Shown here piece after piece: positions 17,480 through 34,803 of a DNA stretch of 35,742 nt. Positions within the stretch are counted from its first letter, which is position 1. Every line of letters starts with the position of its first letter. The translations under genes were made by a program, and so were the position numbers. Below the pieces are notes generated by a model. It saw only the letters and a program-made list of their open reading frames with translations, was not told where the DNA came from and searched no databases. The stretch covers positions 1 to 35,742 of the IMG/VR virus record IMGVR_UViG_3300010368_000038; one strand, 5' to 3'. Source of the DNA: a virus.

Positions 17480-19726
17480 ATGAACAAGTTAACACAGTAC
17501 CTTGTTGAAGGTATCTTAAAGGAAGTTGGAGAAGGGATCACTGTAATGCTTCCAGGAGGATTCAAACCTCCACACGAAGGTCATTATCAGCTAGCAAAAG
17601 GGTATGCTGACATGTCACAAGTTAAGGAAGTTGTAATTCTCATCGGACCAAAGGATCGAGACGGAATCACAGTTGACGATAGTGAGAAGATTTGGGATAT
17701 GTTGATCGGTGGTGATAGAAATATCAGAGTGCAAAGATCAAAATACCCAAGCCCACTACTAACAGCATATAAGTATATTGAAGATGAAGCGCAGCAAGGA
17801 GAAGCCTATGCGCTTGGATCGAGTAGTAAGGGTAGCGATTACGATCGTATTCGAGGGTTTGTTGATCAACACCAGAAAGATGGTAAGTATCACAAACCAG
17901 GAGTATCAGTAGTAGAACTTCCATTAGAACGATCAAAGCCAATCATATACAAAGGACGTACAGACGATGAGAATGGTAAGCCAATGAGTGCATCTCAGTT
18001 GAGAGCAGATCTAGCAGCTAACGATTTTGAAAACTTTAAGACAAATTACCCAAGCATAAAATCTCCACAACAGCTTCAAACGATCTTTGATACGCTTATA
18101 AAAAAAAAGATGAGCGAGGATGGAGCGGGTCTCTCCCAATCTACTTTGGATGAAGTAGTTTTACGTAAACATTTTGAAGCTTTTAAAGATCTTAAAAGCA
18201 AATTTGATGCATTTATCGATAAACTAAAACAAGAAAACAGAGAAACCAAGCAAGCTTTTCGGAAATTAGTAAATGCAATAAAGACTGGAAAAAGATTAGA
18301 TAAATCAGAAAAGAAAGAGATCGGTGATCAAATGAAAGATGTCCTCAAGCTAGCAGGCATCACCGCAGCTTCTGTAATGCCTGGAGGAGTAATATACCTA
18401 TTGCTGGCAAGAGTACCAGCCCTCAAAAAACACATGACACCATCAGCTTTCTTAGCTGAAGGTCGCATTCCACTAAACGAAGGAGGAGCAGCTGGACACA
18501 TGGCACATCCATACGAGGATATGGATATGACGTTTGATGACATCGAAGATATGATTGATGCAGCTCTATCTGGTAAAATTGAGTATGCTCAAGAGAAGCT
18601 AGACGGTCAAAACCTTATGATGACCTATAAGGATGGACAGCCTTTAGCAGCAAGAAGAAAGACTCAACTCAGAAATGCATCCGAAACAGCTTTTACAAAA
18701 ACGGAGTTTGAAAAGGTAAACGAAAAGTACCCAGACAACATAAAGCTATCTTTCAACGAAGCTTTTGCTGATATGGGAAAGGCAATGGAGAAGTTGTCTC
18801 CAGCAGAGAAGGAGGAGTTTTTTGGAAACGGTACTAAGTATGTAAACTTTGAAATACTGCATCCTGCAAGTGCAAATGCAGTTGCTTATGGTGTTACCGA
18901 ACTACGTCTTCACAACATACAAGAGTATGATGAAAATGGAAATGTAAAAGGAACAGATATACAAGCAGCAAAAAAATTAGATCAAGCTCTTAAACAAGTT
19001 GAAGCGGAAAGTCAAGATACCTACGATATAAAATCAACTGACCTTTTAAGTTTAAAACAAACTAAAGATTACGAAAAACAGAAAGAAGAGCTGCTCAAAG
19101 ATCTTAACAACGTTAGAAGTAGATATCAGCTCGCTAAAGGAGATAAGTTAGGATTATATTTTCAAAACTTTTGGTCTAATTTTATCAAGAACAATGCCAA
19201 AACATACAAATACGATATACCAGACAACGTACTGCAAAACCTTATAAACAGATGGGCTTTTGGAGTAAAAGACCCGCCAATACCACAACTAAAAAAAGAA
19301 ATAGACAATCCAGAGTTTAGTGATTGGGTTACGACTTTTGACAAAGGTGGTAATGTTAAAGATCAGAAGAAGATAGCAGTAGAACCAGTTTCTGATATAT
19401 TTTTAAAGTTAGGTGTGTTTGTATTAGAAAGTATGGAAGGATTAATCGCAATCAATCCAAACGATATAGTAGCAAACACAAAAAAAGAATTAGCGTCTGC
19501 CATTGAGCAAATCAAACAGCAAGCTAAAAATGGCAAAATACAAGACGATGATGCTCCACTGCGTTTTTTAAGATCAGAACTCAAAAGAATTGAAAAAGCA
19601 GGAGGATTTGAAAAGATTGTTCCAACAGAGGGTGTCGTGTTTAAACACAAAGACAAAATATATAAACTCACTGGAACATTTGCACCAGTCAACCAAATCA
19701 TAGGATACATTAAATTCGGAAGATAA
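17480..19726 (+). CDS. Nucleotidyltransferase + LETM1-like + nucleic-acid-ligase-like fusion, probable capsid cargo
   Basis: This 748-residue mosaic has four parts. Residues 1-20 form a leader with YLVE|G and ILKE|V, like prohead-protease sites. Residues 21-200 are an HxGH cytidylyltransferase/NMNAT-like domain (GGFKPPHEGH at 26-35; MSASQLR at 169-175 as the second nucleotide-binding motif). Residues 225-325 form a helical segment with a hydrophobic stretch and VMPGG...PSAF, resembling the LETM1 family. Residues 340-748 resemble a covalent nucleotidyltransferase ligase: motif I KLDG (373-376), a YVNFEIL strand (454-460), motif IV EGVVFK (717-722) and motif V IYKLTG (727-732). Two consecutive sites, FLAE|G and PLNE|G (about 325-335), lie exactly at the LETM1/ligase border. 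Substrates are not known; NAD synthesis or repair and RNA or DNA sealing are possibilities from the families. I see no broken motif. Confidence 0.7.
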   Translation: MNKLTQYLVEGILKEVGEGITVMLPGGFKPPHEGHYQLAKGYADMSQVKEVVILIGPKDRDGITVDDSEKIWDMLIGGDRNIRVQRSKYPSPLLTAYKYIEDEAQQGEAYALGSSSKGSDYDRIRGFVDQHQKDGKYHKPGVSVVELPLERSKPIIYKGRTDDENGKPMSASQLRADLAANDFENFKTNYPSIKSPQQLQTIFDTLIKKKMSEDGAGLSQSTLDEVVLRKHFEAFKDLKSKFDAFIDKLKQENRETKQAFRKLVNAIKTGKRLDKSEKKEIGDQMKDVLKLAGITAASVMPGGVIYLLLARVPALKKHMTPSAFLAEGRIPLNEGGAAGHMAHPYEDMDMTFDDIEDMIDAALSGKIEYAQEKLDGQNLMMTYKDGQPLAARRKTQLRNASETAFTKTEFEKVNEKYPDNIKLSFNEAFADMGKAMEKLSPAEKEEFFGNGTKYVNFEILHPASANAVAYGVTELRLHNIQEYDENGNVKGTDIQAAKKLDQALKQVEAESQDTYDIKSTDLLSLKQTKDYEKQKEELLKDLNNVRSRYQLAKGDKLGLYFQNFWSNFIKNNAKTYKYDIPDNVLQNLINRWAFGVKDPPIPQLKKEIDNPEFSDWVTTFDKGGNVKDQKKIAVEPVSDIFLKLGVFVLESMEGLIAINPNDIVANTKKELASAIEQIKQQAKNGKIQDDDAPLRFLRSELKRIEKAGGFEKIVPTEGVVFKHKDKIYKLTGTFAPVNQIIGYIKFGR

Positions 19727-20022
19727 TGAAATTGAAACCACTATTAGAGAAAAAAGAAGCAATTGCAACGTCACCAAATACAAACATGACATTGCATTAC
19801 GATCCTCAGTTTACTGAGGTTGGAGAAGAAGGTAAGCCTGAGTTTAGCTTTACAATTACAATGTCATCTGTAGGTGGTAAGGAGTTTTACAGAGTGGTTG
19901 CAAGTAAAGAAGAGGAAAAGAAATTAGCCGAGGCTGTGAAGCTTGAGCTTCGAAGAGCTTTAAGGAAGTTTGACAAACGAGTTGAAGGAATCTTAGAGCA
20001 GTACAACATAAAAACAAGATAA
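19726..20022 (+). CDS. Small hypothetical protein with protease-like leader
   Basis: The protein has 98 residues; its ATG overlaps the preceding stop (TAATG). The N-terminus MKLKPLLEKKEA has the short amphipathic form of capsid-targeting leaders, with a possible cut after LLE. The body is a beta strand region (FSFTITMS) followed by a charged helix (EEEKKLAEAVKLELRRALRK). There are no recognised domains, signal or membrane segment. Tight coupling to the upstream fusion suggests a shared role or shared packaging; this is inference. Confidence 0.55.
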   Translation: MKLKPLLEKKEAIATSPNTNMTLHYDPQFTEVGEEGKPEFSFTITMSSVGGKEFYRVVASKEEEKKLAEAVKLELRRALRKFDKRVEGILEQYNIKTR

Positions 20023-20038
20023 AAAATAAAGGTTATGA
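20022..20038 (+). promoter_or_regulatory. Translation leader identical to one 15.7 kb away
   Basis: AAAAATAAAGGTTATGA spans the start codon at 20035 and is repeated exactly at 35723-35739 around another start. AAAGG lies only two bases from ATG, too close for a standard Shine-Dalgarno contact, so an A-rich Bacteroidetes-type initiation signal is more likely. Confidence 0.45.
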
Positions 20039-20514
20039 GTAAGCGAATTAAACGCAAAGAGGGTGACGTTTGGGAAGAAAAAGGAAAAACTTGGACAATT
20101 AAAGACGGCATCAAACAAACAGTTACAAAGTTTACAGAGGCACGAAAGTCGTTTTTAACACCACTTAGTTGTCCAGAGTGCGGAAAATCGATGAAGAGTC
20201 ATTGGGACGTAAAATTCTGGAAAACTCACAGAACTTGTTGGGATTGTGTGATCAAAGCAGAGCATGAAATCAGAACACAAGGGAGGTGGGCAGAATACGA
20301 ACAAGCAAAGGTGTCAGCTAACGCAGCTGCTTTCTTAAAGGAGGTCAGAGAAACGTTAGAGGAGTATGCAGGCAGCAGTAAGGAAGATACTTACGTGACT
20401 GAAAAGGGTAAAGTTGAAAAATGGAGTAATCCAGACAACAAAGTTATTCGTCAGTATATCGATACAGAGATTGAAAAGTTAGAAGAAAAGGTAAAAAAGC
20501 TAAACGAGCGATGA
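20035..20514 (+). CDS. Zinc-ribbon-like small protein
   Basis: The protein has 159 residues. An N-terminal basic region (MSKRIKRKEGDVWEEKGKTW) is followed by a possible four-cysteine zinc site: CPEC near residue 46-49 and CWDC about 24 residues later. The C-terminal half is a charged helix ending in IEKLEEKVKKLNER. It overlaps the next gene by four bases (ATGA). It may bind nucleic acid or protein. Function is not recognised. It lacks the L-x-E leader seen in its neighbours, so it may not be cargo. Confidence 0.55.
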   Translation: MSKRIKRKEGDVWEEKGKTWTIKDGIKQTVTKFTEARKSFLTPLSCPECGKSMKSHWDVKFWKTHRTCWDCVIKAEHEIRTQGRWAEYEQAKVSANAAAFLKEVRETLEEYAGSSKEDTYVTEKGKVEKWSNPDNKVIRQYIDTEIEKLEEKVKKLNER

Positions 20515-20969
20515 ACGAAGAGTCAAAGGGGTTATGGCACAATATTAGAGCTAAGCGAGCTAGAGGTGAGAAACCAGCACGCAAAGGATCTAAAGCGTAC
20601 AAAGATGCGGTAAAAGCTGCAAAGAAAATCAACGCTGAAGAAACCGTATTGTATCGCAGCGAATCTCTTCGATTAGAGATTGTGGAGCATTTAGAACCGG
20701 TAGTGTTCCAGGAAGCAGTATATAATGGACGTAAAGTAGAGCTTAATAAAATCATGCGTGGTGATGTTAAGAAATTCAAAGTTTATGTCAATGCTGGATC
20801 TAAAACAGCTGATGGTGAAATTAAAGCAAAGAAAGTTAATTTCGGTCAGAAAGGAATGAAGATCAAGAAAAGCAATCCTGAGAGACGTAAGTCATTTAGA
20901 GCTAGACATAACTGCGATAATCCAGGACCGAAAACATCCGCCAGATACTGGTCTTGCCGAAAATGGTAG
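20511..20969 (+). CDS. Conserved phage protein with Cys/Arg-rich C-terminal module
   Basis: The protein has 152 residues in two parts. Residues 1-40 carry the basic segment GLWHNIRAKRARGEKPARKG. The C-terminal 65 residues run from KVYVNAG through KKVNFGQKGMKIKK to RRKSFRARHNCDNPGPK and RYWSCRKW. I recall this tail sequence from many marine phage genomes, where it occurs in structural or uncharacterised proteins, often after other domains. The two Cys and one His could bind a metal. The protein is very basic, which suits contact with packaged DNA. Neighbours suggest a head-associated role. It ends at the stop just before a TATTTATA motif. Confidence 0.6.
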   Translation: MNEESKGLWHNIRAKRARGEKPARKGSKAYKDAVKAAKKINAEETVLYRSESLRLEIVEHLEPVVFQEAVYNGRKVELNKIMRGDVKKFKVYVNAGSKTADGEIKAKKVNFGQKGMKIKKSNPERRKSFRARHNCDNPGPKTSARYWSCRKW

Positions 20970-20977
20970 TATTTATA
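20970..20977 (+). promoter_or_regulatory. TATTTATA motif, candidate late promoter
   Basis: GTAGTATTTATATAAAAC begins at the stop codon of the preceding gene and lies 19 bases ahead of the ATG at 20997. It is the only non-coding signal in this 27-base gap. Confidence 0.5.
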
Positions 20978-20996
20978 TAAAACAATAAAATTTAAC

Positions 20997-21926
20997 ATGA
21001 ATAGCGTATACAAACAATTACTGCAAGCAAAAGGCTTGCTAACTGAGGATTTTGAAAAGGATGCTAAGGACATTATGGGCAATGACCTTGCTGGGGCAGT
21101 ATCAGCATTAAAGACTAAAGCTAGTGATAAAGAATTTCAATCGGGTGCTACAGCTGGTCAAGAGGATGGATCAGACAACGATGAAAAGGTAACATCAAAC
21201 GAGACACCAATCCCTGCAACTAAAATGTTTCCAACTCAAAAGGAAATTGGATTTGGAAACAGCTTAGAAGATCTTGTAAAAGATAAGTATGAGCAGATTG
21301 ACAACGCCTTCACAAACCCAGTAAAGATGTCATCTCCAGACGGAAAGCTACCAATTCTTGCAGCTGATATAGGAGGAGAGATAGCCATACTCGATGGACA
21401 CCATAGATGGTCATTATGCTTTATGATTAATCCAGACGCAGAGATGTCATGCGATGTTTTGAAAGGTGACTTTGACACTGCAGAAGACGCTCTTAAAGCA
21501 ATGCAGTTTGCAATCGCAGCAAAAGCTGGAAAGGTTGTGACTAAAAACTTTGAAGGAAAAGATTTGATGTCAGTATCAACCGAAGAAGTTGAAAAGTATG
21601 TAGAAGAGAATATTGTACGATCAGCTGTTGCAAAATTTGCTAAATATAAACCAGAGATACTATCAAAAGCTGGAATCAAAAAGCCTAATAAGGAGAGAGA
21701 CTTGGATGATACAAAAATTAAAAAAGCTATTGCACGTTACATAGGAGTATCGCATAAAAAGATCAAAGCGATGGTAGGACCTTATACAAGAACCATCATG
21801 CCACAAGCTGGTGCCTCAGGTACTTCACAGGATGATGTAAACAAAGCATTAGCTCAAGGAGATATCAACTTTAACGAACCATACCTAAAGGAAGCATTGC
21901 AAAAAAGAGCTGGAATAATAAAATAA
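20997..21926 (+). CDS. ParB/sulfiredoxin-like protein, probable capsid cargo
   Basis: The protein has 309 residues. The leader MNSVYKQLLQAKGLLTED has an LLTE|D site at 14-17, resembling the prohead-protease cut in the major capsid protein. Residues about 80-160 form a ParB/Srx-type domain: KLPILAADIGGEIAILDGHH with the diagnostic DGHHRW at 133-138. In this superfamily DGHHR binds a nucleotide phosphate; members act as CTP switches, nucleases or sulfiredoxins. The C-terminal half is helical and basic (IKKAIARYIGVSHKKIKAMV). The region between leader and domain is acidic and probably disordered. It is the first gene after a promoter-like motif and is followed two bases later by another leader-bearing gene. 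The biochemical activity cannot be decided from sequence. Confidence 0.65.
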   Translation: MNSVYKQLLQAKGLLTEDFEKDAKDIMGNDLAGAVSALKTKASDKEFQSGATAGQEDGSDNDEKVTSNETPIPATKMFPTQKEIGFGNSLEDLVKDKYEQIDNAFTNPVKMSSPDGKLPILAADIGGEIAILDGHHRWSLCFMINPDAEMSCDVLKGDFDTAEDALKAMQFAIAAKAGKVVTKNFEGKDLMSVSTEEVEKYVEENIVRSAVAKFAKYKPEILSKAGIKKPNKERDLDDTKIKKAIARYIGVSHKKIKAMVGPYTRTIMPQAGASGTSQDDVNKALAQGDINFNEPYLKEALQKRAGIIK

Positions 21927-21928
21927 CT

Positions 21929-22327
21929 ATGAAACTAAGAGACTTAATACCACTAAAAGAAGCGCAAGACGATCAATTGTGTATGGAGTACTTTCGTAAA
22001 TTTGGAGAGTGTTGTAATTACAATGCTGTCTTCGATTACGTAGGAATAAAAGATGATACAGAAATTTACACAGCCGATCTTACCAATTTTGGTGATTTGA
22101 GCTTAGTAGTAGCAAAAGCTTACATTGTAGCTAAGGTGACTAAGAAACATGCAATGTTTGGTTTAGTATATGTGTTGAATGGGCTTGCGAAATTAGACGC
22201 TACAATTTGCCGTATTAAACGTACGGAAAAGGATGGACACGTAAATTTAGAAGCAATTATGTTTGACAGCGAAGACACAAAAAACTTCAGTGGTAACGAT
22301 GTTAAATTCAAAAACGTGATCAAATGA
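21929..22327 (+). CDS. Small hypothetical protein with PLKE|A leader
   Basis: The protein has 132 residues. MKLRDLIPLKEAQDD fits a short capsid-targeting leader, with a predicted cut after PLKE leaving an Ala-start body of about 120 residues. The body contains three closely spaced cysteines (C18, C28 and C29 region) and mixed alpha/beta sequence. No family recognised. It overlaps the next gene by four bases (ATGA), so it is part of a tightly coupled set. Confidence 0.55.
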   Translation: MKLRDLIPLKEAQDDQLCMEYFRKFGECCNYNAVFDYVGIKDDTEIYTADLTNFGDLSLVVAKAYIVAKVTKKHAMFGLVYVLNGLAKLDATICRIKRTEKDGHVNLEAIMFDSEDTKNFSGNDVKFKNVIK

Positions 22328-22716
22328 AGAGAACAAAAAAACAACTCCAAGAAGAGGCGGCAAGATTATTAATCCGTAAGTATGTTCGTGAGATGTTGAA
22401 AGAGGGTGCTGGAGGAGCACCTGAAGCAGAGGAAGAAGAGGCAGCTGCTGATGCATCCACTGAACCTGAAACAGAAGATGAACCTGCAGACGAACCAAAG
22501 AAGCCTGAGCCAGAAGAAGCTCAAGATGAACCTGGACTAGAAGAGGAGTTAGCAGAGTTGACTGATTCATATATTAAGAAACTTAAAAATGCACAAGCAG
22601 CAGTTGATCAAAGTGATGTGATTGAAATCATGGCACAACTGATGGACAGCTTTGGCTATGGAAACCAAGACAAGCTGACAGTATTACAGGGTGTTAAAGA
22701 AATGACTATACGATGA
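22324..22716 (+). CDS. Acidic Glu/Pro-rich small protein with MLKE|G leader
   Basis: The protein has 130 residues. Residues 1-28 form a basic amphipathic helix (KRTKKQLQEEAARLLIRKYV), ending at MLKE|G, a good match to the site in the major capsid protein (LLKE|G). Residues 30-75 are an acidic, Pro-rich, probably disordered tract, and residues 80-130 form a short helical domain. A basic leader, acidic linker and small globular end resemble an internal head protein or scaffold-associated protein. No enzyme motif. Coupled by ATGA overlaps on both sides. Confidence 0.55.
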   Translation: MKRTKKQLQEEAARLLIRKYVREMLKEGAGGAPEAEEEEAAADASTEPETEDEPADEPKKPEPEEAQDEPGLEEELAELTDSYIKKLKNAQAAVDQSDVIEIMAQLMDSFGYGNQDKLTVLQGVKEMTIR

Positions 22717-24254
22717 GCAAACTTAACAAACTTATAGAGAATGGCGTTAAGTCTTTGATGGTTAGAAATCTTGAAGAAAAAGCTGTATCAAAAAACCAAC
22801 AGCAGTTTATGGGGATGGTGCATGCTTACAAGAAAGGTGAAATGAAAGATGCACCAGCCAGTGTTAAAAAAGCTGCAAAAGGAATGACTAAAAAAGCAGC
22901 TAAGGATTTCGCAAGCACAAAGCATAAAGGATTACCAACGAGAGTAGATGAAAGTGTTGTTGGTGACATCCTAATCATAGCAGATGAGAACAACACCTAT
23001 GAGAAATTCACAGCAGAATTAATCAAACAGAAATATATCATGCCAGATGAGCTAGAAGATCCAGAAACTGAAAAAGAACTTCGTGCAATGTATGATGGCG
23101 TTAAGGATGGTAGCTCTATTAATGAAGCACTAGCACCAACTAACAATCTAAAAAGCAAAATGCCTGATCACGTTAAAGGATGGGCTAAATGGGTTGCACA
23201 GCACTCAAACGGTGAATGGTGGTATTATGATTCAATACCTCGTTTAGTACCAGGCACTGGATGGAAAAACAACGATAGAGATGGTTATCAGTTTGGTAGC
23301 GGTATAAAGACAGCACCACAGGGTTGGGAAAAGTCTAGTCAAGAATTGAAAGAAAACAAGATGATCAAAGAGTACACGGACAAGAACTTCTCAGGAAGAG
23401 AGTTAATAAATAAAGTCAACTCAAAAAAGCCAGATGCAGAAGGAGCTAAATTTATTGAGGAGTTCTTTCCTAATGGATTTAAGAGTCAACAAAAAGCAGT
23501 CCAAGCTTTGAGAGCGAGTGATGCAAGCCCTATCAAAAAGAGAATGGGACAATATGCTCCAATGTTTGTGCACGTACAATTCCATGAATTTACTGATCAG
23601 GCTGGTGAGAAATATGGAGTTCATCAAACACAATACTACAACTCCAACTTCAAGGATAAGCCGGGAGGAGAAAATTTTAATCCAAGTGTTACTGAGCTAT
23701 ACATCTACAAGCGAAAAGATCCAAACAACCCATCACCACAAGCTCAAAAAGACCAAGCAATCGGAACAATACTTGTTAAGACGGATGAGTATATAAAAGA
23801 TCTTGAGCTACTAAGACGTGGAGGGCAATTAGGTCAGCGTGTAAGCGAATCAACCAAAGAAAACAAGATGAACACAAAAACAGAGTCAATCGTAAAGCGA
23901 TTAAAGGAAGATACCGAATACCAAAAATTCTTCAAGTCAGCAATGGACAAGTTTGGTGTGAAATCTCCAAAAGAGTTGAGCGATAAGAAAAAGAAAGAGT
24001 TTTTCAACTACGTAGATAAAAACTACAAAGCGAAGAGCGAAGTTAAAATAACAGAAGAATACTTTCCAGCCCATGCACAGGACTCAGCTGAATTAAAGAA
24101 AGCAAAAGCAGCATTAGCAAATTGGTTTAATAATATCAAATCAGGAGACGTATCAATGCGAACTAAGGTACAACAGCTTGATGTTTTGAGCGACCTTATT
24201 GATGATTATGCTTACGAATACGCTCAAGATTGGGCAAGCGGCAACATGATTTAA
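22713..24254 (+). CDS. Mosaic protein with DUF3008 segment, possible polyprotein
   Basis: The protein has 513 residues in apparent modules. Residues 1-27 are a leader (LNKLIENGVKSLMVRNLEEK). Residues 28-75 match DUF3008, seen as QQFMGMVHAYKKGE then KGMTKKAAKDFASTKHKGLP. Residues 76-135 may include a short helical domain ending in SSINE|A. Residues 140-215 are Trp-rich (WAKWVAQHSNGEWWYYDS). Residues 220-385 form an alpha/beta domain I do not recognise. A C-terminal module of about 45 residues (EYQKFFKSAMDKFGVKSPKE...KEFFNYVD) is of a type I recall as a short phage-protein repeat. ELKE|NKM and RLKE|DTE lie at two module borders, and the string KENKM occurs twice. Processing by the prohead protease into several internal peptides is plausible but unproven. 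Confidence 0.6.
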   Translation: MSKLNKLIENGVKSLMVRNLEEKAVSKNQQQFMGMVHAYKKGEMKDAPASVKKAAKGMTKKAAKDFASTKHKGLPTRVDESVVGDILIIADENNTYEKFTAELIKQKYIMPDELEDPETEKELRAMYDGVKDGSSINEALAPTNNLKSKMPDHVKGWAKWVAQHSNGEWWYYDSIPRLVPGTGWKNNDRDGYQFGSGIKTAPQGWEKSSQELKENKMIKEYTDKNFSGRELINKVNSKKPDAEGAKFIEEFFPNGFKSQQKAVQALRASDASPIKKRMGQYAPMFVHVQFHEFTDQAGEKYGVHQTQYYNSNFKDKPGGENFNPSVTELYIYKRKDPNNPSPQAQKDQAIGTILVKTDEYIKDLELLRRGGQLGQRVSESTKENKMNTKTESIVKRLKEDTEYQKFFKSAMDKFGVKSPKELSDKKKKEFFNYVDKNYKAKSEVKITEEYFPAHAQDSAELKKAKAALANWFNNIKSGDVSMRTKVQQLDVLSDLIDDYAYEYAQDWASGNMI

Positions 24255-24273
24255 ACACATAAAGCATTAAGTT

Positions 24274-24624
24274 ATGACTATAAACAGATACCATATTATC
24301 GGGCTTGCGTTGTACACAGCGTTAATCGTAACACTCACCTATTTATTATTAAGACCTAACACCAATGTGAATGGGCTATCAACACAAGATCAAAAATATG
24401 TGGATAGTCTAAACATACGCATTGGAGAACTGGAAGGTCAGCAAAAAGTGAGTGACAGCTTAATAGCTAATTACAAAAAGGATATAGAAGTATTGGATCA
24501 TAAAATTGATTCAACTAAAAACAAAGTTATACAAATACGCAAGGATTATGAAGGCAAAATTAAAGATATTAGTAGGTACACTCCTACTCAGCTCGATAAC
24601 TTTTTCACAGACAGATACAAGTAA
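24274..24624 (+). CDS. Membrane-anchored coiled-coil protein, i-spanin-like
   Basis: The protein has 116 residues. One N-terminal transmembrane helix (about 8-27, IIGLALYTALIVTLTYLLL) with few preceding residues suggests an N-in, C-periplasmic orientation. A long charged coiled coil follows (residues 45-100), ending in YTPTQLDNFFTDRYK. This is the layout of Rz-type inner-membrane spanins. The next gene starts inside it in another frame (77-base overlap), as for Rz/Rz1 pairs. No endolysin or holin is seen nearby. Spanin function is inferred from topology and overlap. Confidence 0.55.
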   Translation: MTINRYHIIGLALYTALIVTLTYLLLRPNTNVNGLSTQDQKYVDSLNIRIGELEGQQKVSDSLIANYKKDIEVLDHKIDSTKNKVIQIRKDYEGKIKDISRYTPTQLDNFFTDRYK

Positions 24625-24976
24625 TCAATTAAGCAAAGACTCTACTGTATGTTTACCAGCTAGCATTGCTAGGCAGGTAGCGGCAGATTTGGTTTCCTAT
24701 GATTTGTGCAAGGAAGAGCTAACTAGCACTGAACAGCTTAACAAGCTACTGAATGAAAAAAATGAACAGCTATCGAAGGCATTTCTTGAAAAGGAGAAAC
24801 AGTATGACCTGTGCAAAGTTGAAGTTGATTTGCTTAAGGAGAAAAGCGACGTATATGAGCAGGCTGCTATTGATCTAGCAAATAAGAATCGTAAATTAAA
24901 AAACACATCTATTGTATTAGGAACGACTACCGGAGTATCTGTGTTATTGGTAGTACTATTATCGATATTGAAATAA
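24548..24976 (+). CDS. Exported coiled-coil protein overlapping the upstream gene, spanin partner candidate
   Basis: I place the start at ATG 24548 (142 residues), because it opens directly with a signal peptide: MKAKLKILVGTLLLSSITFS then Q, a cleavage region typical of Flavobacteriia. A TTG 42 bases upstream would add a basic stretch and is less likely. The mature part is a Glu/Lys-rich coiled coil with paired cysteines (YDLCKEEL, then YDLCKVEV). A C-terminal hydrophobic helix (TSIVLGTTTGVSVLLVVLLS) could anchor it in the inner membrane. There is no lipobox, so it is not a classical o-spanin. Its stop overlaps the terminase start by one base. Confidence 0.55.
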   Translation: MKAKLKILVGTLLLSSITFSQTDTSNQLSKDSTVCLPASIARQVAADLVSYDLCKEELTSTEQLNKLLNEKNEQLSKAFLEKEKQYDLCKVEVDLLKEKSDVYEQAAIDLANKNRKLKNTSIVLGTTTGVSVLLVVLLSILK

Positions 24977-26547
24977 TGAGTCAAGACGTAAACCTAAAAC
25001 AACTTATAAGAGCTGAGTACATCAGGTGTGCTAAGGATCCGGTTTATTTCATGAAAAAATACTGCCTGATTCAGCATCCAACTAAAGGAAAGATACCATT
25101 CAAGTTATTTCCATACCAGGAAGAGCTTACAAATGATATTCAAGAAAACGACAGGGTAGTCATACTCAAGTCAAGGCAGCTAGGGATATCAACCTTATCA
25201 GCGGGGTACTCGTTGTGGACTATGCTGTTTCAGAGTGACAAAAACATACTTGTAGTAGCGATAGATCAAAACACATCCAAAAACCTTGTAACAAAGGTTA
25301 GTGTAATGTTTGAGAATCTACCTAGTTGGCTTAAAATGAGAACCACTGAAAAGAATAAGTTATCGCTTAGACTTGCAAATGGATCACAAATCAAAGCTGT
25401 AGCAAGCTCAGGAACATCAGGACGTTCAGAAGCATTATCGTTAGTGATTATTGATGAGGCTGCGTTCGTTGATAATGCAGAAGAGTTATGGGCATCACTA
25501 CAACAAACGCTATCAACCGGAGGTAGAGGTATCATACTTAGTACACCAAATGGAACCGGTAACTTCTTCCACAAAATATGGGTAAAGTCAGAGGAAGGGC
25601 GAAACTCATTCTTTACCAAAAGGCTTCCGTGGCAAGTACATCCAGAAAGGGATCAAGAGTGGAGAGATAGACAGGATGAGGAATTAGGATTGAGACTTGC
25701 AGCACAGGAGTGTGACTGTGATTTTAGCACATCAGGTAATACAGTCGTACATCCAGAAATGCTAACATTCTACAGAGAAACCTACATGCAAGATCCACTA
25801 GAAAAGCGTGGTTTTGATAGTAACTTATGGGTATGGGAGATTCCAAACTACTCAAAGGACTATGTGGTCGTAGCCGATGTCGCCCGAGGAGATGGATCTG
25901 ACTTTTCAGCTTTCCACGTAATTGATATAGAAGAAGCAACTCAAGTAGCAGAATATAAAGGACAAGTCACAACAAAGGATTACGGAAATATGCTTGTGTC
26001 CATAGCTACGGAATACAATGACGCATTGCTAGTAATAGAGAACGCAAACATAGGATGGGCAACAATACAACAAGTAATAGACCGTGGATATAGAAACCTT
26101 TATTACACACCAAAAGATATAGGCCTCGATTCAGATCGTTATCTAGCTCGAGCCACGGATGTACAAAGAACAAAAGATCAAGTAGCAGGGTTTACAATGT
26201 CATCAAAAGTGAGACCTTTAATTATTTCGAAGATGGAGTTGTATATGCGAGAAAAAAGTTGTATAATAAGGAGTAGAAGATTGCTTGATGAGCTTGGTGT
26301 ATTTGTATGGCGAAATGCACGAGCAGAGGCACAATCAGGATATAACGATGACTTGGTTATGAGTTGGTGTATGGGATTATGGGTTAGAGACACAGCCTTA
26401 AAGTTAAGGCAGGCTGGAATAGAGCTTACTAAGAGAGCATTAACCCATGCCAAATCGACCGGTGTATATAAGTCTGGCCAGACAAACACTGCATGGAAGA
26501 TGAATACTAATAAGGGTGATCAAGAAGACTTGAATTGGTTATTGTAG
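24976..26547 (+). CDS. 17: Terminase large subunit (gp17-like)
   Basis: This is the packaging motor ATPase and headful nuclease. The ATPase half shows a Walker A variant KSRQLGIST (65-73), Walker B LVIIDEAAF (about 156-164) and the coupling motif STPNGTG (about 191). The RNase H-fold nuclease half shows VADVARGDGSDF (about 299), LVIENANIG and GYNDDLVMSW (about 456), giving the usual Asp triad. At 523 residues it is shorter than T4 gp17 (610), mainly at the ends. The start overlaps the upstream stop (TAATG). No small terminase subunit is recognised in the window. The portal gene follows 28 bases later. Confidence 0.95.
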   Translation: MSQDVNLKQLIRAEYIRCAKDPVYFMKKYCLIQHPTKGKIPFKLFPYQEELTNDIQENDRVVILKSRQLGISTLSAGYSLWTMLFQSDKNILVVAIDQNTSKNLVTKVSVMFENLPSWLKMRTTEKNKLSLRLANGSQIKAVASSGTSGRSEALSLVIIDEAAFVDNAEELWASLQQTLSTGGRGIILSTPNGTGNFFHKIWVKSEEGRNSFFTKRLPWQVHPERDQEWRDRQDEELGLRLAAQECDCDFSTSGNTVVHPEMLTFYRETYMQDPLEKRGFDSNLWVWEIPNYSKDYVVVADVARGDGSDFSAFHVIDIEEATQVAEYKGQVTTKDYGNMLVSIATEYNDALLVIENANIGWATIQQVIDRGYRNLYYTPKDIGLDSDRYLARATDVQRTKDQVAGFTMSSKVRPLIISKMELYMREKSCIIRSRRLLDELGVFVWRNARAEAQSGYNDDLVMSWCMGLWVRDTALKLRQAGIELTKRALTHAKSTGVYKSGQTNTAWKMNTNKGDQEDLNWLL

Positions 26548-26549
26548 CC

Positions 26550-26557
26550 TATTTATA
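26550..26557 (+). promoter_or_regulatory. TATTTATA motif, candidate late promoter
   Basis: This is the third exact AGCCTATTTATA copy (26546-26557). Here it runs into AAATAAAT, so the site also contains TATAAATA, the T4 late box, on the coding strand (TTTATAAATA). It lies 18 bases before the portal start. Confidence 0.6.
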
Positions 26558-26575
26558 AATAAATAATAAAATTAG

Positions 26576-28417
26576 ATGGCAGAGAAAGATTCCAATCTAT
26601 TTAATAGATTAAGAAAACTCTTTAGTACCGATGTAATTATTCGTAATGTCGGAGGAAAGCAGTTAAAAGTAATCGATACCGACCGCATACAATCCTCTGG
26701 AAACTTAGAGAATAATTCGCGAGTGGATAGGTTTCAACGTATGTATGGAACTGGACTTACAGCATACTCTGGTATGGGTCAAGTCTTACAGGCAACTCGT
26801 TTAGAGTTGTTTCGTGATTATGAAGCGATGGATACAGATAGCATTATATCATCCGCTTTAGACATATATGCAGATGAGTGTACTGCAAAAGATGAGTTTG
26901 AGGATACCTTAACAATAAACACAACAAACGATCAAATACAGAAAGTCCTTCATAATTTATTTTATGACATAATGAACATTGAGTTTAATTTATGGCCATG
27001 GGTACGTAACACACTAAAGTATGGAGACTTTTTCCTTCACCTAGATATAACTGAGAAATTCGGTATCACAAACGTAGAGCCAATCTCAGCCTATGAGATG
27101 ATTCGCGAAGAGGGAACAGATCCACAATTTCCTAACAAAGTGACTTTTAAAAGAGATTTCACTGTAGGGATGATAAATTCTAGCACAGTGTATCGTAGAG
27201 ATGTGGAGGAATACGACAACTATGAGATTGCTCACTTTCGACTACTCAACGACACTAATTTCTTACCATACGGACGTTCCCTACTAGAACCTGCGAGAAA
27301 GGTTTGGAAGCAGTTAACTTTGATGGAGGATGCAATGTTGATTCACAGAATCATGCGAGCACCAGATAAGCGTGTTTTCAAGATAGACATCGGTAACATA
27401 CCACCAAACGAGGTTGATGCGTTCATGGAGGCAATGGTCAATAAGATGAAAAAGGTGCCTTTTATAGACGAGAATACTGGAGATTACAACTTAAAGTATA
27501 ACATGCAGAACATACTCGAAGACTTCTACTTACCGGTACGTGGTCAAGAAAATGGAACAGACATACAAACTACTCCAGGGTTGCAGATGGATGCAATTCC
27601 AGATATCGAGTATCTGCAGAACAGAATGCTAGGTTCGTTAAAAATTCCAAAAGCATACTTGGGATTCTTAGAAGATACTACTGGAAAAGCTTCACTAGCA
27701 TCACAAGACTTTAGATTTGCACGAACAATCGAGCGTGTACAAAAAATTATAGTTTCAGAGTTAACTAAGATTGCAATCGTACACTTGTACGCACAAGGAT
27801 TCACGGACGAGGAGATAGTTGATTTTTCATTAAAATTAACCCCACCATCAACATACTACGAAAGAGAAAAATTAGAGTTATGGACTAGTAAGGCGACTCT
27901 TGCAGGGGATTTGGTAGAGAAGAAGTTGTTTAGTAGATTTTGGTGCTACGAACACATTTTCAATATGTCACCAGAGCAGTGGATGGAAGAGCAGGAGCGT
28001 ATTGCAGCAGATTCAAAGGAATTCTTCCGTCTTGAGCAGATTAAAACCGAAGGTAATGATCCAAAGAAGACTGGACAATCATTTGGTACGGCACATGACA
28101 TTGCTAGTCTATACAAAGGTGATGCAGGAGTTCCAAAAGGATACGATGAGAAAGAGGTTCCGGAAGGAGGATGGCCTGGAGCTGGAAGACCGGAAGAGCC
28201 TGGAACCTATGGAAAACATGAACATCCACTAGGTTGGGACCCAATGGGACATAAGCAGAATAAAGCAGCTGGAAAGGTTGTGTATGAGTCTCAGAGTTTG
28301 GATCAATTTAAAGGATTAAAGGATTCTTTAAAAAAATCACAAGCTGTACGTAGCACATACGCTCCGGATCAGAAAAACCATGGGCTTCTTAGCGAAGAAA
28401 ACCTCCTAGATGAGTAG
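26576..28417 (+). CDS. 20: Portal vertex protein (gp20-like)
   Basis: This protein would form the dodecameric ring at the head vertex that docks the terminase and starts prohead assembly. Recognition rests on the T4 gp20-type core: DTDSIISSALDIYADECT, NLWPWVRNTLKYGDFFLHLD, the FLPYGRSLLEPARKVWKQ segment, APDKRVFKIDIGNIP, and GFLEDTTGKASLASQDFRFA. At 613 residues it is longer than T4 gp20 (524), with a Gly/Pro-rich C-terminal tail (about 520-613). Two copies of LSEEN/LLDE-like residues end the chain. Its position between gp17 and the core/protease genes matches T4 order apart from the missing sheath and tube genes. Confidence 0.93.
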   Translation: MAEKDSNLFNRLRKLFSTDVIIRNVGGKQLKVIDTDRIQSSGNLENNSRVDRFQRMYGTGLTAYSGMGQVLQATRLELFRDYEAMDTDSIISSALDIYADECTAKDEFEDTLTINTTNDQIQKVLHNLFYDIMNIEFNLWPWVRNTLKYGDFFLHLDITEKFGITNVEPISAYEMIREEGTDPQFPNKVTFKRDFTVGMINSSTVYRRDVEEYDNYEIAHFRLLNDTNFLPYGRSLLEPARKVWKQLTLMEDAMLIHRIMRAPDKRVFKIDIGNIPPNEVDAFMEAMVNKMKKVPFIDENTGDYNLKYNMQNILEDFYLPVRGQENGTDIQTTPGLQMDAIPDIEYLQNRMLGSLKIPKAYLGFLEDTTGKASLASQDFRFARTIERVQKIIVSELTKIAIVHLYAQGFTDEEIVDFSLKLTPPSTYYEREKLELWTSKATLAGDLVEKKLFSRFWCYEHIFNMSPEQWMEEQERIAADSKEFFRLEQIKTEGNDPKKTGQSFGTAHDIASLYKGDAGVPKGYDEKEVPEGGWPGAGRPEEPGTYGKHEHPLGWDPMGHKQNKAAGKVVYESQSLDQFKGLKDSLKKSQAVRSTYAPDQKNHGLLSEENLLDE

Positions 28418-28435
28418 TCTTTATAAATTCCGACA

Positions 28436-28443
28436 TATTTATT
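28436..28443 (+). promoter_or_regulatory. TATTTATT variant in a CCGACATATTTAT repeat
   Basis: CCGACATATTTAT at 28430-28442 is identical to the copy at 3947-3959. It sits in the 45-base gap after the portal gene, 19 bases before the ATG at 28463. Confidence 0.5.
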
Positions 28444-28462
28444 ACTAGGACATATATATAAT

Positions 28463-29296
28463 ATGAAGAAATCGACGCACTCGAAGATCAAGAACACTGG
28501 CATACTATTTGAGCTATTAACACGCCAAATCACAGCCGATACCTTGACTGGATCAAACAACTCACCAGCGCTAAAAATTATTAAAGAATTTTTTGCAGCT
28601 AAAAACGTACTAGCTAAGGAGTTGATGCTCTATCAAACACTACTTAACGAATCATTCAAGACACACAATAAAGCTGAATCATTAATCAGTAGCACTCTGA
28701 AAATAAGAAAGCAGCTAGACGAAAAGGAGCTTAATGAAGCAAAATACAGCTTGATTAAGGAGATTAAAAAGCACTACGATCTTAAAGACTTTTTCAAATC
28801 AACAATCAACAACTATAGAGTGTATGCTTCTATTTATCGAGTGTTCGAAGGATCTGGAATCACACATATAGGAGATGTCGTAAGAAGCCGAGAAACTATT
28901 GTTGAGCATATTATCAACCGTAAATCAGTCTCCCAAGAAAGCTCAAACGAGTACTTACGTGAAACTGAGGAAGTACGTTTGTTGGCGTATAAGTTAATGC
29001 TTGATAAATTCAACGACAAGTACGCGGCATTATCAACAGCACAACAGACCGTATTAAAGGAATACATTAACAATGTCAGCAACACAACAAAGTTGCGTGA
29101 CTTTGTGGTAAAGGAAAGTATCACACTACAAAAGCTGTTAGCAAAGAATAGTGGTACAATCAAAGATCCAGTAACTAGCATAAAATTATCGGAGGTTGTT
29201 AGTTTGTTAGATCGCAATAAAAACATCAAACGTGTTGAAGAGGGTCACGTACAATCACTTCTTCTTTACCATGAATTGTTAAAAGAGTTAAAATGA
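28463..29296 (+). CDS. Conserved helical protein in the prohead core position
   Basis: The protein has 277 residues and is almost entirely helical and basic. The N-terminus MKKSTHSKIKNTGILFELLT leads into a region of charged helices, with IYRVFEGSGITHIGDVV near the middle. I recall similar proteins between portal and protease genes of marine T4-like phages, where T4 has the small core proteins gp67 and gp68. The stop overlaps the next start (ATGA). A prohead core or assembly role is inferred from position only; it has no catalytic motif and no obvious L-x-E|A leader. Confidence 0.6.
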   Translation: MKKSTHSKIKNTGILFELLTRQITADTLTGSNNSPALKIIKEFFAAKNVLAKELMLYQTLLNESFKTHNKAESLISSTLKIRKQLDEKELNEAKYSLIKEIKKHYDLKDFFKSTINNYRVYASIYRVFEGSGITHIGDVVRSRETIVEHIINRKSVSQESSNEYLRETEEVRLLAYKLMLDKFNDKYAALSTAQQTVLKEYINNVSNTTKLRDFVVKESITLQKLLAKNSGTIKDPVTSIKLSEVVSLLDRNKNIKRVEEGHVQSLLLYHELLKELK

Positions 29297-30033
29297 CAAT
29301 CGAAGAGAAAATAGAAATAAGAGAGTATATTAGACAGCAAGCTGAGAAGATGCGGAAGGAAAACACCACCGCAAATATCGCTACTTATGATACTCCAAAC
29401 GCATTTACTGGAGACGAGGATGATGAGGGAACGCAAGCTGTTGATCTTACCGATCCAGAATACGCATACTCTATTAAAGGACCAAAGAACAGAAATCCTA
29501 AATACTCTGTTAAGTTGAACGAAGCATCCTACAACGATTTTAAAAGAGACGAATCGCGATCTAGCATACAAAAGATTAATGCCAACATCTTAGAGGTAAA
29601 CAAAAATATCCGTGAATTGGCTCGTATGCTCAATCACAGTATAAAATTAAAAACAGAGCAAAGATTAGACAATAGCATCCACTGGAAGCGTACAAATGAG
29701 GCTCTAAAAAAGATGCATTACAGAATCTCAGTGTTGTCTGAAAAAGCTAACGAGCTCTACGATCTAAATGAAGCTACTGCACAGCAATTAAAAACACAAT
29801 TGCTAACTATTTTTAAAGATGCAGGGTACACGTTAACTGCTAACGACATAGAGTATAACACGGCTGGAGCTGATGTGTATGAGTTTGACGTTATGATTAA
29901 CGGAGAGCCATATGCAATTGATTACGACAGAGGTAGTTTAGTTTTTCAAGACTACAATGAAGAAGTACCACTTGGAAACATTAAGCAACCCGAAATGGTA
30001 GTTCAAAACATTCAAAAAACACTACAAGTATGA
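29293..30033 (+). CDS. Probable prohead core-associated protein
   Basis: The protein has 246 residues. The N-terminal 30 residues are a charged helix (KIEIREYIRQQAEKMRKEN). An acidic linker (GDEDDEGTQAVDLTDPE) and a central coiled coil (SIQKINANILEVNKNIRELA) follow, then a small C-terminal alpha/beta domain (YEFDVMINGEPYAIDYDRG). Sites SVKLNE|A and YDLNE|A fit the prohead-protease pattern and flank the coiled coil, so it may be cut during maturation like T4 core proteins. It overlaps both neighbours by four bases. Family not named by me. Confidence 0.55.
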   Translation: MTIEEKIEIREYIRQQAEKMRKENTTANIATYDTPNAFTGDEDDEGTQAVDLTDPEYAYSIKGPKNRNPKYSVKLNEASYNDFKRDESRSSIQKINANILEVNKNIRELARMLNHSIKLKTEQRLDNSIHWKRTNEALKKMHYRISVLSEKANELYDLNEATAQQLKTQLLTIFKDAGYTLTANDIEYNTAGADVYEFDVMINGEPYAIDYDRGSLVFQDYNEEVPLGNIKQPEMVVQNIQKTLQV

Positions 30034-30647
30034 AAAGAGTATTAATTGATTATATAGGGTCTATTGATGTGACTCCGCAGCAGATTAATGAATCAATGAA
30101 CAAGAACAACGGTAAGTTAATCGTATCCGGCATCATGCAACGAGCTAGTGACAACTCAGAGAAAAACTTCAACCAAAACGGACGAAGCTATCCTCTAGGC
30201 ATTCTTAAACCAGAGTGCGAAAAGTATAAGAAGACCTTTATTGCAGAGCGTCGAGCGTTAGGTGAGCTAGATCATCCAGATTCTCAAGTAGTAAACCTAT
30301 CCAACGTGTCACACAATATATTGGATCTTTGGTGGCAAGGAAACGACTTGATGGGTAAGATTGAAATACTAGGAACACCATCAGGAAACATAGCTAAAGA
30401 GCTATTGAAAGCCGGTATCCGATTAGGTATATCATCTCGAGGAATGGGATCAGTTAAAGAGCTTGGTGAAGGTAAGGTAGAAGTTCAAGATGATTTTGAA
30501 ATCGTATGTTGGGATTTGGTTAGTAATCCATCCACACAAGGAGCGTTTATGAACCCATCACTTAATGAGAGTGTTCAATCAAGAACAAATAACAAGTACA
30601 CAAAGATTAATTCACTAATCAGTGACATAATAACAGTAATGCAATGA
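30030..30647 (+). CDS. 21: Prohead protease (gp21-like)
   Basis: This is the serine protease of the T4 gp21 (herpesvirus assemblin-like) fold that digests scaffold and trims capsid proteins after L/I-x-E sites. Visible features are FNQNGRSYP after a SGIMQRAS strand, the active-site histidine region GELDHP (His 82), the serine region GISSRGMGS (Ser 135/136), and the closing DLVSNPSTQGAFM. Length 205 is near T4 gp21 (212). The C-terminal PSLNE|S could be an autocleavage site. It overlaps both neighbours by four bases. Its presence is the basis for predicting cleavage sites elsewhere in this window. Confidence 0.93.
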   Translation: MKRVLIDYIGSIDVTPQQINESMNKNNGKLIVSGIMQRASDNSEKNFNQNGRSYPLGILKPECEKYKKTFIAERRALGELDHPDSQVVNLSNVSHNILDLWWQGNDLMGKIEILGTPSGNIAKELLKAGIRLGISSRGMGSVKELGEGKVEVQDDFEIVCWDLVSNPSTQGAFMNPSLNESVQSRTNNKYTKINSLISDIITVMQ

Positions 30648-32087: not shown

Positions 32088-32131
32088 AACAAACCGATTA
32101 CAATACAATAATTTTTTTACAAAAACAACGC

Positions 32132-32246: not shown

Positions 32247-32256
32247 AAAATCAAAA

Positions 32257-33189
32257 ATGAACAAATTATTAAAAGATGCAATCGCAGACGCAAAAGCTGT
32301 TAGAGAAACTGCTTTAGCTAATGCAAAGATGGCACTCGAAGAAGCATTCGCTCCAAAGCTGCAATCAATGCTTTCTCACAAAATCAAAGAAGAGATGGAA
32401 GAGGAAGAGCCGATGGCAGAAATGGAAGACGAAGATGAGATGACAATGGAAATGGATTACGAAGATGAAATGAAGTCTGAAGGTGAAGGCGGAGACGCTG
32501 AAATGGAAGATGAGGTTGAATCAGAAGAAGACATGGAAGTTTCTGATGAAGGTTCTGAGGAAGAGGCATCAGCTGAAGCCGAAGAAGAAGAAATGTCTGA
32601 TGAGGAATTAGAAGAGATTCTAAGAGAATTAGAAGGCGAAGAAGACGAAATGGCTACTGAAGGTGAAATGGCTGATGAAGAAGATGCTATGAACGAAGAA
32701 GAAGACATGGAAGCTGAAGAAGAGGAAATCGACTTAGAAGAAATCATCCGAGCTCTACGCGAAGAAGAAGGTGAAGAGGATACGATGGAAGAAGAGGAAG
32801 ACATGGAAGCTGAGGCTGAGTTAGAAGAGGCTTATGAAGTTATCAAATTCTTACGAAGCAAACTTAACGAAGTAAACTTGTTAAACGCTAAATTACTTTA
32901 CGTGAACAAGCTATTCAAGAGAGCTGAATTAAGCGAGGCTAAGAAGGTTAAGATCATCGAAACTTTTGATCGAGTGACAAATGTAAGAGAAGCTAAGTTG
33001 GTATATGCTACATTGGCAGAATCAATGACACCAAATGCTCCGATTGCAAACAACAAGAAAGTTGTGAAACGTACAAAAAGAGGATTGACTGAAGGTATCG
33101 CTTCTGCTCCAAGCAAAGCTACTAGAAAGCCAATCATTGAAAACACAGTTTACAACCGATTTAACGAATTAATTAACTACAACAAGTAA
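32257..33189 (+). CDS. 22: Prohead core scaffold protein (gp22-like)
   Basis: The protein has 310 residues. The N-terminal helix (MNKLLKDAIADAKAVRETAL) contains MALEE|A. A very acidic Glu/Asp/Met tract occupies residues 45-190. The conserved C-terminal part is helical (YEVIKFLRSKLNEVNLLNAK; LFKRAELSEAKKVKIIETFD; NVREAKLVYATLAES) and resembles gp22 of T4-like phages. Several L-x-E sites (ELSE|A, TLAE|S) fit a scaffold that is digested and expelled on maturation. Its place directly before gp23 supports the call. The acidic repeat is low complexity, and its length may vary between relatives. T4 gp22 is 269 residues. Confidence 0.85.
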   Translation: MNKLLKDAIADAKAVRETALANAKMALEEAFAPKLQSMLSHKIKEEMEEEEPMAEMEDEDEMTMEMDYEDEMKSEGEGGDAEMEDEVESEEDMEVSDEGSEEEASAEAEEEEMSDEELEEILRELEGEEDEMATEGEMADEEDAMNEEEDMEAEEEEIDLEEIIRALREEEGEEDTMEEEEDMEAEAELEEAYEVIKFLRSKLNEVNLLNAKLLYVNKLFKRAELSEAKKVKIIETFDRVTNVREAKLVYATLAESMTPNAPIANNKKVVKRTKRGLTEGIASAPSKATRKPIIENTVYNRFNELINYNK

Positions 33190-33207: not shown

Positions 33208-34803
33208 ATGAATTTATTCGAAGGAATGGGAGAAACCAATAGAAGTGTAGAAAACAAAGCACTTATCTCCAAATGGTCTAGAACAGGCCTACTAGAAGGA
33301 CTTGGTTCTAAGAGTGAAGAAGCTACTGTAGCTGTCATGTTAGAAAACCAAGCAAAACAACTTTTGAAGGAAGGATCTGCTACTACAGCTGGTACCGCTG
33401 GTGCTGGATATGAGCAGTGGACTGGAGTTGCTCTTCCGTTGATCAGACGAGTATACGCTGAAATCGCAGCAAAGGAATTTGTTAGCGTTCAGCCAATGAA
33501 CTTGCCATCAGGATTAGTATTCTATCTTGACTTCAAATACTCTAACGATAAAAACCCATTTGGATTTGATCCAGAAGGACAAAACCAAACTGGTACATTA
33601 CAAGGTATCACAGACACCACTGGAGATCCGTCTGATGGTCTTTACGGAGCTGGTCGTTTTGGGTACTCTATCAAGAATGTTGCAGGAACTGCTGGTGCAA
33701 TAACAACTGGATCAGTGAGCGCTGCTGACGTATTCTACGATGGTAACTACACTGCATCTATTGCACAATACGCTGCTGTAGCTGTAGCAACATCATCTAT
33801 GTCAGCACTTGATTTAGAAGGTGTTCGATCTTTCCGATTATTCTCAGGATCTACTGAATTAACTGTACTTCCTGCATTTACGCAAGTAGTGGGTGGTAAC
33901 GTACAATTCGTTGTAACTGGAACTGCAGTATCAACTGGATCTTTCACAGCTAACGTATCTTACTCAGTACAGCCTACTAACGATGACAGAGGTGACTTCG
34001 AAGCTAAGCCAGTTTCTTCTACAAACAGAGACTTAGATACAGACTTGAACATTCCAAGCATCGAATTGCAAATGCGTTCGATTCCAGTAACTGCTAAGAC
34101 TCGTAAATTGAAAGCAAGCTGGACTCCAGAATTCGCTCAAGACCTTAACGCTTACCACTCTGTGGATGCTGAAGGAGAATTGACAGCTATGTTGTCTGAG
34201 TACGTTTCAATGGAAATTGACTTAGAGATCTTAGATATGTTGATCAACTCTGCAGCTACACAAGACTACTGGTCAGCTAAAGTTGGTCAAGAGTATGACG
34301 CTGCTTCTAACTCGTTTGTACAATCTCAATTCAACGGTCAAGCATATATCCAAGGTACTTGGTTTGCAACTTTAGGTACTAAAGTTCAAAAAGTATCTAA
34401 CGATATCCACGCTAAGACTTTGAGAGGTGGTGCTAACTTCTTAGTATGTTCTCCACGTATTTCAACAATCATGGAATCAATCCCAGGATTTGCTGCTAAT
34501 ACAGACGGAAACAAAATGAAGTATGCAATGGGAGTTCGTAACATAGGATCGATCGCAAGCTCGTACGATGTTTACAAAAACCCTTACATGCAAGAGAACA
34601 CAATCTTGATGGGATTCAGAGGTAGCCAATTCTTGGAAACTGGAGCTGTTTATGCACCATATGTTCCATTAATGTTGACTCCTTTAGTGTACGATCCAAA
34701 CAACTTTACGCCACGTAGAGGGGTAATGACAAGATATGCTAAACTTGTAACAAGACCCGAGTTTTACGGACGTATCAACGTTGCTGATCTTAACATCCTT
34801 TAA
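33208..34803 (+). CDS. 23: Major capsid protein precursor (gp23-like)
   Basis: The protein has 531 residues (T4 gp23 has 521). It shows the T4 gp23 pattern: an N-terminal propeptide with SKWSRTGLLEGLGSKSEE and VMLENQAKQLLKE, a predicted cut at LLKE|G after residue 55, then the mature start region (VALPLIRRVYAEIAAKEFVS; VQPMNLPSGLVFYLDF). Later blocks include RKLKASWTPEFAQDLNAYH, LVCSPRISTIMESIPGF, and a C-terminal YAPYVPLMLTPLVYDPNNFT. Codon choice is more uniform, with many GCT, GGT and TCT codons, as expected for very high expression. A strong terminator follows within 25 bases. No gp24 vertex paralogue is seen in the window. Confidence 0.95.
   Translation: MNLFEGMGETNRSVENKALISKWSRTGLLEGLGSKSEEATVAVMLENQAKQLLKEGSATTAGTAGAGYEQWTGVALPLIRRVYAEIAAKEFVSVQPMNLPSGLVFYLDFKYSNDKNPFGFDPEGQNQTGTLQGITDTTGDPSDGLYGAGRFGYSIKNVAGTAGAITTGSVSAADVFYDGNYTASIAQYAAVAVATSSMSALDLEGVRSFRLFSGSTELTVLPAFTQVVGGNVQFVVTGTAVSTGSFTANVSYSVQPTNDDRGDFEAKPVSSTNRDLDTDLNIPSIELQMRSIPVTAKTRKLKASWTPEFAQDLNAYHSVDAEGELTAMLSEYVSMEIDLEILDMLINSAATQDYWSAKVGQEYDAASNSFVQSQFNGQAYIQGTWFATLGTKVQKVSNDIHAKTLRGGANFLVCSPRISTIMESIPGFAANTDGNKMKYAMGVRNIGSIASSYDVYKNPYMQENTILMGFRGSQFLETGAVYAPYVPLMLTPLVYDPNNFTPRRGVMTRYAKLVTRPEFYGRINVADLNIL

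Follow-up and report, generated by a model that had tools for sequence, protein, structure and literature searches.

The IMG/VR record IMGVR_UViG_3300010368_000038 of an uncultured, T4-like bacterial virus (35,742 bases, here called the window) carries, at positions 17480 to 24254, a block of eight genes whose products raise the question of why so many begin with a short, similarly ending peptide and where these proteins go. An initial annotation had proposed a dedicated locus of internal head proteins. The block probably encodes capsid cargo that is matured by a gp21-type protease, partly in the form of a polyprotein. From the leaders, the conserved sites, the shuffling of modules and the protease gene, all visible in the DNA itself, we infer packaging, cleavage, injection and an enzymatic role. 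Short N-terminal leaders would bring the block proteins into the prohead, and an S77 prohead protease, whose T4-type gene lies 6 kb downstream, would remove them by cutting after [LIV]-x-E. In the product of the gene at 22713 (genes are named by their start positions), and less certainly in that of 17480, modules such as DUF3008, YQKFF and others appear to be joined by [LIV]xE sites, and a single packaged chain would yield several small proteins by cleavage before the DNA is packaged. Injected along with the DNA, the mature products would act in the cell as infection begins; one of them combines a PPAT/NMNAT-like nucleotidyltransferase with a ligase-like domain.

30030..30647, plus strand: prohead protease, Peptidase_S77, T4 gp21 type (Pfam E 4.7e-26; PHROG 207 E 7e-53)

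Comparison of homologues is stronger evidence than motif counting. The relatives of the window are Microcystis phage Mel-JY01, Flavobacterium phage immuto and Rhodothermus phage RM378, and five related contigs were read whole, namely G001 (165.6 kb), G002 (122 kb), G003, G004 and G005. The comparison is most informative for the last gene of the block, whose internal sites, which make it look like a polyprotein, were missed by the initial annotation.

22713..24254, plus strand: 513-amino-acid (aa) modular protein, proposed cargo polyprotein, with [LIV]xE at inferred module joints
22779..22952, plus strand: DUF3008 module (residues 23-80), flanked by LEE|K and VDE|S (PHROG 30268 E 2.5e-15)
23910..24056, plus strand: YQKFF module (residues 400-448), bounded by LKE|D and ITE|E, defined by module comparison

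The 22713 product resembles a modular polyprotein, a reading that is new in this analysis. [LIV]xE stands at the inferred joints (residues 22, 80, 138, 214, 220, 379, 399 and 448), and three more occurrences (9, 250 and 328) lie away from them. The DUF3008 module, for which the Pfam match (E 7e-4) is below the cut-off, is missing from the G001 and G003 homologues, whose leader runs at LKE|Y straight into the module that follows IKE|Y in the window. Another homologue (L007) has additional sequence between INE and LNE. The YQKFF homologue in the 484-kb phage record LR756508 starts after a leader ending in DLKE|A, and the upstream sites of this module are less exact than those of DUF3008.

At least 552 DUF3008 relatives in viral contigs of IMG/VR, found by patterns, were confirmed, and the best 80 of these were surveyed by counting from match coordinates. 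The module starts right after its own Met at 36 of the 80 loci. Where it is not Met-initiated, [LIV]xE lies directly upstream in 43 of 44 cases, and the lone exception, at L139, is a short open stretch in which no in-frame Met occurs. A regular-expression subset comprised 22 distinct embedded contexts in 21 upstream clusters. P1 was Glu and P3 was V, L or I in all 22, compared with a background of 226 [LIV]xE in 12,164 positions (1.9% per position), and the upstream sequence was otherwise unrelated (mean pairwise identity 8%). On the C-terminal side, a further [LIV]xE was found within ten residues in 13 of 19 cases versus 14% expected. The same junction rule is obeyed in S-SCSM2R and S-CAM22, both of which have PHROG 207 (gp21-type) proteases, and in the 371-kb contig behind locus L106, in which an S77 protease is present.

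The leaders of the remaining genes were compared in the same way.

17480..17524, plus strand: 17480 leader with putative cleavage following E15 (ILKE|V), L13 and E15 invariant
19726..20022, plus strand: 98-aa protein with the short leader MKLKPLLE|K (MELKKLLSE|K in relatives), not amphipathic
20035..20514, plus strand: 159-aa Zn-ribbon-like protein without a leader, homologues in immuto, Mel-JY01 and LR756508
20511..20969, plus strand: 152-aa basic protein without a leader, PHROG 7595 (unknown), DUF5754 below cut-off
20997..21926, plus strand: 309-aa protein with a DGHHRW motif, leader ending LLTE|D at E17 (ILSE|A/S in relatives)
21929..22327, plus strand: 132-aa protein with the leader MKLRDLIPLKE|A, in which E11 is invariant in spite of a 3-residue indel and changing neighbours
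22324..22716, plus strand: 130-aa acidic protein, leader ending E27|G28, both residues invariant in five homologues

A leader of the T4 capsid-targeting type (about 10-20 residues ending in L/I-x-E) was found in six of the eight block genes. All six open reading frames named in the initial annotation start where it placed them, and the tetrapeptides quoted for them (YLVE|G, PLLE|K, LLTE|D, PLKE|A, MLKE|G and NLEE|K) are all present, as is LLKE|G in the major capsid protein. Its picture of a block made up of leader genes does not extend to 20035 and 20511. Likewise, the description of the leaders as amphipathic, measured as helical hydrophobic moment against shuffles, suits at most four of the six (17480, 20997, 22324 and 22713) and fails for 19726 and 21929. 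Across homologues, the LxE glutamate is kept while the rest of the leader diverges. In six homologues of 17480, two of them only 27% identical, M1, L13 and E15 are the only invariant residues before residue 24. The cut site originally assigned to this protein, YLVE|G at E10, is not conserved (D in L005/G001), and the conserved site is E15. In 20997, the LxE leader end is kept although the body is only 26-28% identical in G001-G003. E27|G28 of 22324, an acidic, low-complexity protein, is also kept amid changing neighbours. By its motif, 20997 may be ParB/Srx-like; its AlphaFold model was not used.

The genomes of relatives also hold runs of unrelated proteins with common leaders. Pairs with similar N-termini and unrelated bodies were counted, with internal segments as the control, and the counts include a few non-leaders such as signal peptides and repeats. 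The test gave 12 pairs in G001 (control 0-1), 14 in G002 (control 0), 12 in immuto (control 0-2) and 33 in 47 kb of LR756508 (control 0-1). In T4, it recovered the leader of the internal proteins (IP), MKTYQEFIAEA, and only the IP pair stands out. No pairs were found in crAss001, there was no leader signal in the cyanophage S-SCSM1 (1 pair, control 0-3), and none of the 7 pairs in Mel-JY01 was a true LxE-leader pair (LxE in 2 of 10 genes). The common starts are of the type KLKDIL.E in a run at 151-156.5 kb of G001, RLxELAGL at 16-19 kb of G002, ENFDLKKFLVENKLT-type in four immuto proteins and KLRxIIREE in many proteins of LR756508. A KLKDIL-type regular expression matches 12 of 206 genes in G001, 10 of 140 in G002, 0 of 267 in T4 and 0 of 114 in crAss001, counts that are descriptive because the pattern was written after these leaders had been seen. 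Three genes of the 139-kb contig G010 (L285) start with MRAREFI[TA]E shortly before the terminase, and two similar genes occur in G018 (L283-L284). The proteins beside the G010 terminase match other virion-protein PHROGs. MRAxEF[IV][AT]E, close to the T4 EFIAE, begins proteins of viral contigs (including L286-L365) whose bodies form 11 unrelated clusters, one of which holds 72 of the 92 proteins. In the window, the 21929 leader is common to an unrelated 83-aa protein at 18019 in G002 (2 of 60 shuffles), and the unrelated-body partner of the 20997 leader looks like chance.

On the reverse complement of G001, roughly ten genes at 151172-156471 (within L018) have KLKDIL.E-type leaders but otherwise encode unrelated proteins, one of them a DUF2608/HAD-like phosphatase. 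An ADP-ribosyltransferase assignment for the gene at 154395 was rejected, as the Pfam match is weak (E 0.082). In LR756508, a long run of small genes lies between the portal and capsid genes (L016, about 21600-32800).

The order of the block, between neck/tail-type genes and the terminase, is kept in G001, G002, G003 and G005; G004 ends within the first block gene, and small genes form a block at the equivalent place in Mel-JY01 and immuto. This conserved placement agrees with the proposal of an internal-protein locus. It is not a single locus, as distant leader-gene runs occur at 151-156 kb and 99-101 kb of G001 and at 16-19 kb of G002.

The initial annotation regarded the functions of the block as unknown, which does not hold for its first gene.

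17480..19726, plus strand: 748-aa protein with leader, HIGH-type nucleotidyltransferase (PPAT/NMNAT-like) and ligase-like domain, by profiles and conserved residues
18470..18490, plus strand: inner PLNE|GG junction ahead of the ligase-like domain, where a second cut is possible (LxE|GG in 5 of 6 homologues)

Profile searches of the PDB matched residues 18-86 of 17480 to phosphopantetheine adenylyltransferases (PPAT, E 1.9e-5), and no NMNAT entry scored better than E 0.02. The domain therefore belongs with the HIGH-superfamily nucleotidyltransferase fold, with PPAT closest by profile. AlphaFold models were of low confidence (mean pLDDT 45.9 for 17480 and 35.9 for 20997) and were used solely for the nucleotidyltransferase fold of 17480, where the model also ranks PPAT/NadD, as the sequence profiles already show. 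In the C-terminal half, K373-x-D-G, E458, E717-G718 and K729 are invariant in six homologues, and these may correspond to the ligase motifs KxDG, III, IV and V. The Pfam RNA_ligase match of this half (E 0.056) is below the family cut-off, and PDB profiles gave no match to a ligase. The 17480 product may also be a polyprotein, less certainly than 22713. In LR756508, the DGHHRW motif of 20997 is fused to a 17480-type protein, and because one chain joins this motif, the nucleotidyltransferase and the ligase-like part, the arrangement suggests that the three act together. The 17480 protein may act on NAD or RNA ends early in infection.

Several results weigh against the interpretation as protease-matured cargo and have to be considered together with the alternatives. 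One is that, of the six leaders, only those of 21929 and 22324 have a convincing partner on an unrelated protein. That a short motif arose by coincidence in N-termini rich in K and E is very improbable as an explanation, and motif counts by themselves would do little to dismiss it. About one in four 30-residue windows contains [LI]xE. A test for enrichment, counting [LI]xE in the first 30 residues against shuffles, revealed a modest excess that is not confined to the block. Six of eight block genes have the motif versus 3.02+-1.33 expected, a count reached by 70 of 2000 shuffles, and [LI]xE[AGS], the annotation's own pattern plus S, occurs in 3 of 8 versus 0.54 expected (28 of 2000). The six named genes score 6 of 6 versus 2.56 expected; these were chosen for having the motif, and therefore 6 of 8 is the fair count. 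The other 22 window genes also exceed the shuffles (9 versus 5.2 expected) because the head-assembly genes at 28463-33208 carry the motif in 7 of 7, and the remaining 15 have no excess (2 versus 1.9 expected). Orthologous blocks contain the motif in 7 of 8 genes in G001, 8 of 8 in G002 and 14 of 20 in immuto (7.7 expected). In S-SCSM1, N-termini resembling capsid targeting sequences were found in 4 of 48 virion-flagged coding sequences and 10 of 230 other calls (p 0.21). The simple [LI]xE rule is thus weak evidence, since 70 of 2000 shuffles reach the count and the virion proteins of S-SCSM1 are not predicted by it. What speaks against coincidence is the conservation in homologues, the common leaders on unrelated bodies and the 43 of 44 exact junctions, which largely refute it for the junctions.

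Instead of being protease sites, the [LIV]xE segments might cap or link the modules structurally, which is decidedly unlikely. At the junction before the ligase-like domain, a wider survey of 58 contexts found [LIVMF]xE|GG in 35, LLM|GG in 22 and another sequence in 1. The LLx segment is therefore conserved even with M in place of E, and the cut at this junction is uncertain because LLM replaces LxE in 22 of 58. Searches of the 22 contigs with embedded DUF3008, most of which are fragments (two exceed 130 kb), found no match to PHROG 207, S78 or XkdF proteases and none to the T4 Gp23 capsid or T4-type portal families; nine contain a T4-type terminase. Of 38 ends of automatically called module indels, 21 lie close to a site, versus 24% of positions, in alignments that overlap and are not independent. 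Caps or linkers would not explain why the 36 loci with Met-initiated DUF3008 modules are entirely without LxE, nor why the upstream sequence is otherwise unrelated. Alternatively, the block proteins could be prohead core or scaffold proteins like T4 gp67, gp68 and gp22, which are targeted, cut and mostly degraded or expelled and not delivered. This is unlikely as an account of the block, although 22324, acidic and of low complexity like a core protein, could be such a scaffold or core protein instead of cargo. The equal motif excess in the true head genes (7 of 7) is also in its favor. Against it, 17480 has enzyme-like domains with invariant catalytic-type residues, and, according to PMC9602691 and PMC10665884, a cyanophage NMNAT is present in mature virions.

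The other head and packaging genes of the window are the terminase (24976), the portal (26576) and the gp23-type capsid gene (33208). Profile searches of PHROG and Pfam found no family match for the protein preceding the capsid gene.

32257..33189, plus strand: acidic protein preceding the capsid gene, probable scaffold by position and composition, with homologues in relatives
33208..34803, plus strand: major capsid protein, gp23 type, LLKE|G at E55

Immediately upstream of the terminase, two membrane-type open reading frames overlap (24274-24624 and about 24551-24976), of which the second begins like a signal peptide. They are possibly a spanin-like pair, and pairs resembling them are present in Mel-JY01 and LR756508. 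By eye, 34980-35459, after the capsid gene, resembles a GIY-YIG/NUMOD-type homing endonuclease, and 8851-9261, conserved in G001-G005, a PD-(D/E)XK-type endonuclease.

PMC9026906 describes the specificity of T4 gp21 and the capsid targeting sequence of IPI-III and Alt, and suggests such leaders as a general route by which T4-like phages package varied proteins; the principle of packaging by leader is therefore already known. The window resembles this system in its short N-terminal L/I-x-E leaders, its gp21-type protease and the leaders common to unrelated bodies (PMC9026906). It differs in having several leader types per genome, many more genes and sites between modules, and PHROG and Pfam searches found no homology of the block protein bodies to IPI, IPII, IPIII or Alt, in agreement with the initial annotation. 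The nearest likeness for 17480 is to the NMNAT virion proteins of cyanophages S-SCSM1, S-CBWM1 and S-SZBM1, which have a HIGH-type nucleotidyltransferase; that of S-SCSM1 was found in the virion proteome, and its authors discuss an influence on host NAD (PMC9602691, PMC10665884). It begins MKSFLQFLKE|A and thus has a leader ending LKE|A, and a DUF3008 protein two genes away is annotated 'virion protein'. In contrast to these NMNATs (PMC9602691, PMC10665884), the nucleotidyltransferase of 17480 shares its chain with a ligase-like domain, from which it may be separated by a cut. Polyvalent proteins are multi-domain and predicted to be injected, and their authors themselves draw the analogy to polyproteins (PMC5512222). 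Several disparate domains in one chain are likewise found in 17480 and 22713. Polyvalent proteins release their domains via embedded peptidases (PMC5512222), whereas PHROG and Pfam searches found no peptidase domain in 17480 or 22713 and the window sites match a separate prohead protease. In phiKZ and SPN3US, a relative of gp21 cleaves the propeptides of many head proteins after x-E. The P3 preference there is different (S/A-x-E or A-x-E), the propeptides are mostly long, and the excerpts of PMC9026906 and PMC5694885 do not describe short leaders common to unrelated proteins. The literature searched contained neither a modular chain delimited by protease sites nor any link between DUF3008 and phages, and a term search of the paper on the host strain of immuto found no virion proteomics.

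Beyond the window, the chances are about even that plug-in polyproteins are packed into the heads of many large environmental phages. Any [LIV]xE-bounded domain could be inserted into such a chain, from which the head protease would make small effectors, with DUF3008 as a marker. If this is true, a weak motif would become a readable code for the proteins that phages pack into their heads. Leaders together with module junctions would allow the injected proteins of uncultured phages to be predicted from sequence, and they would suggest how such viruses load tool-kits and deliver them into bacteria.

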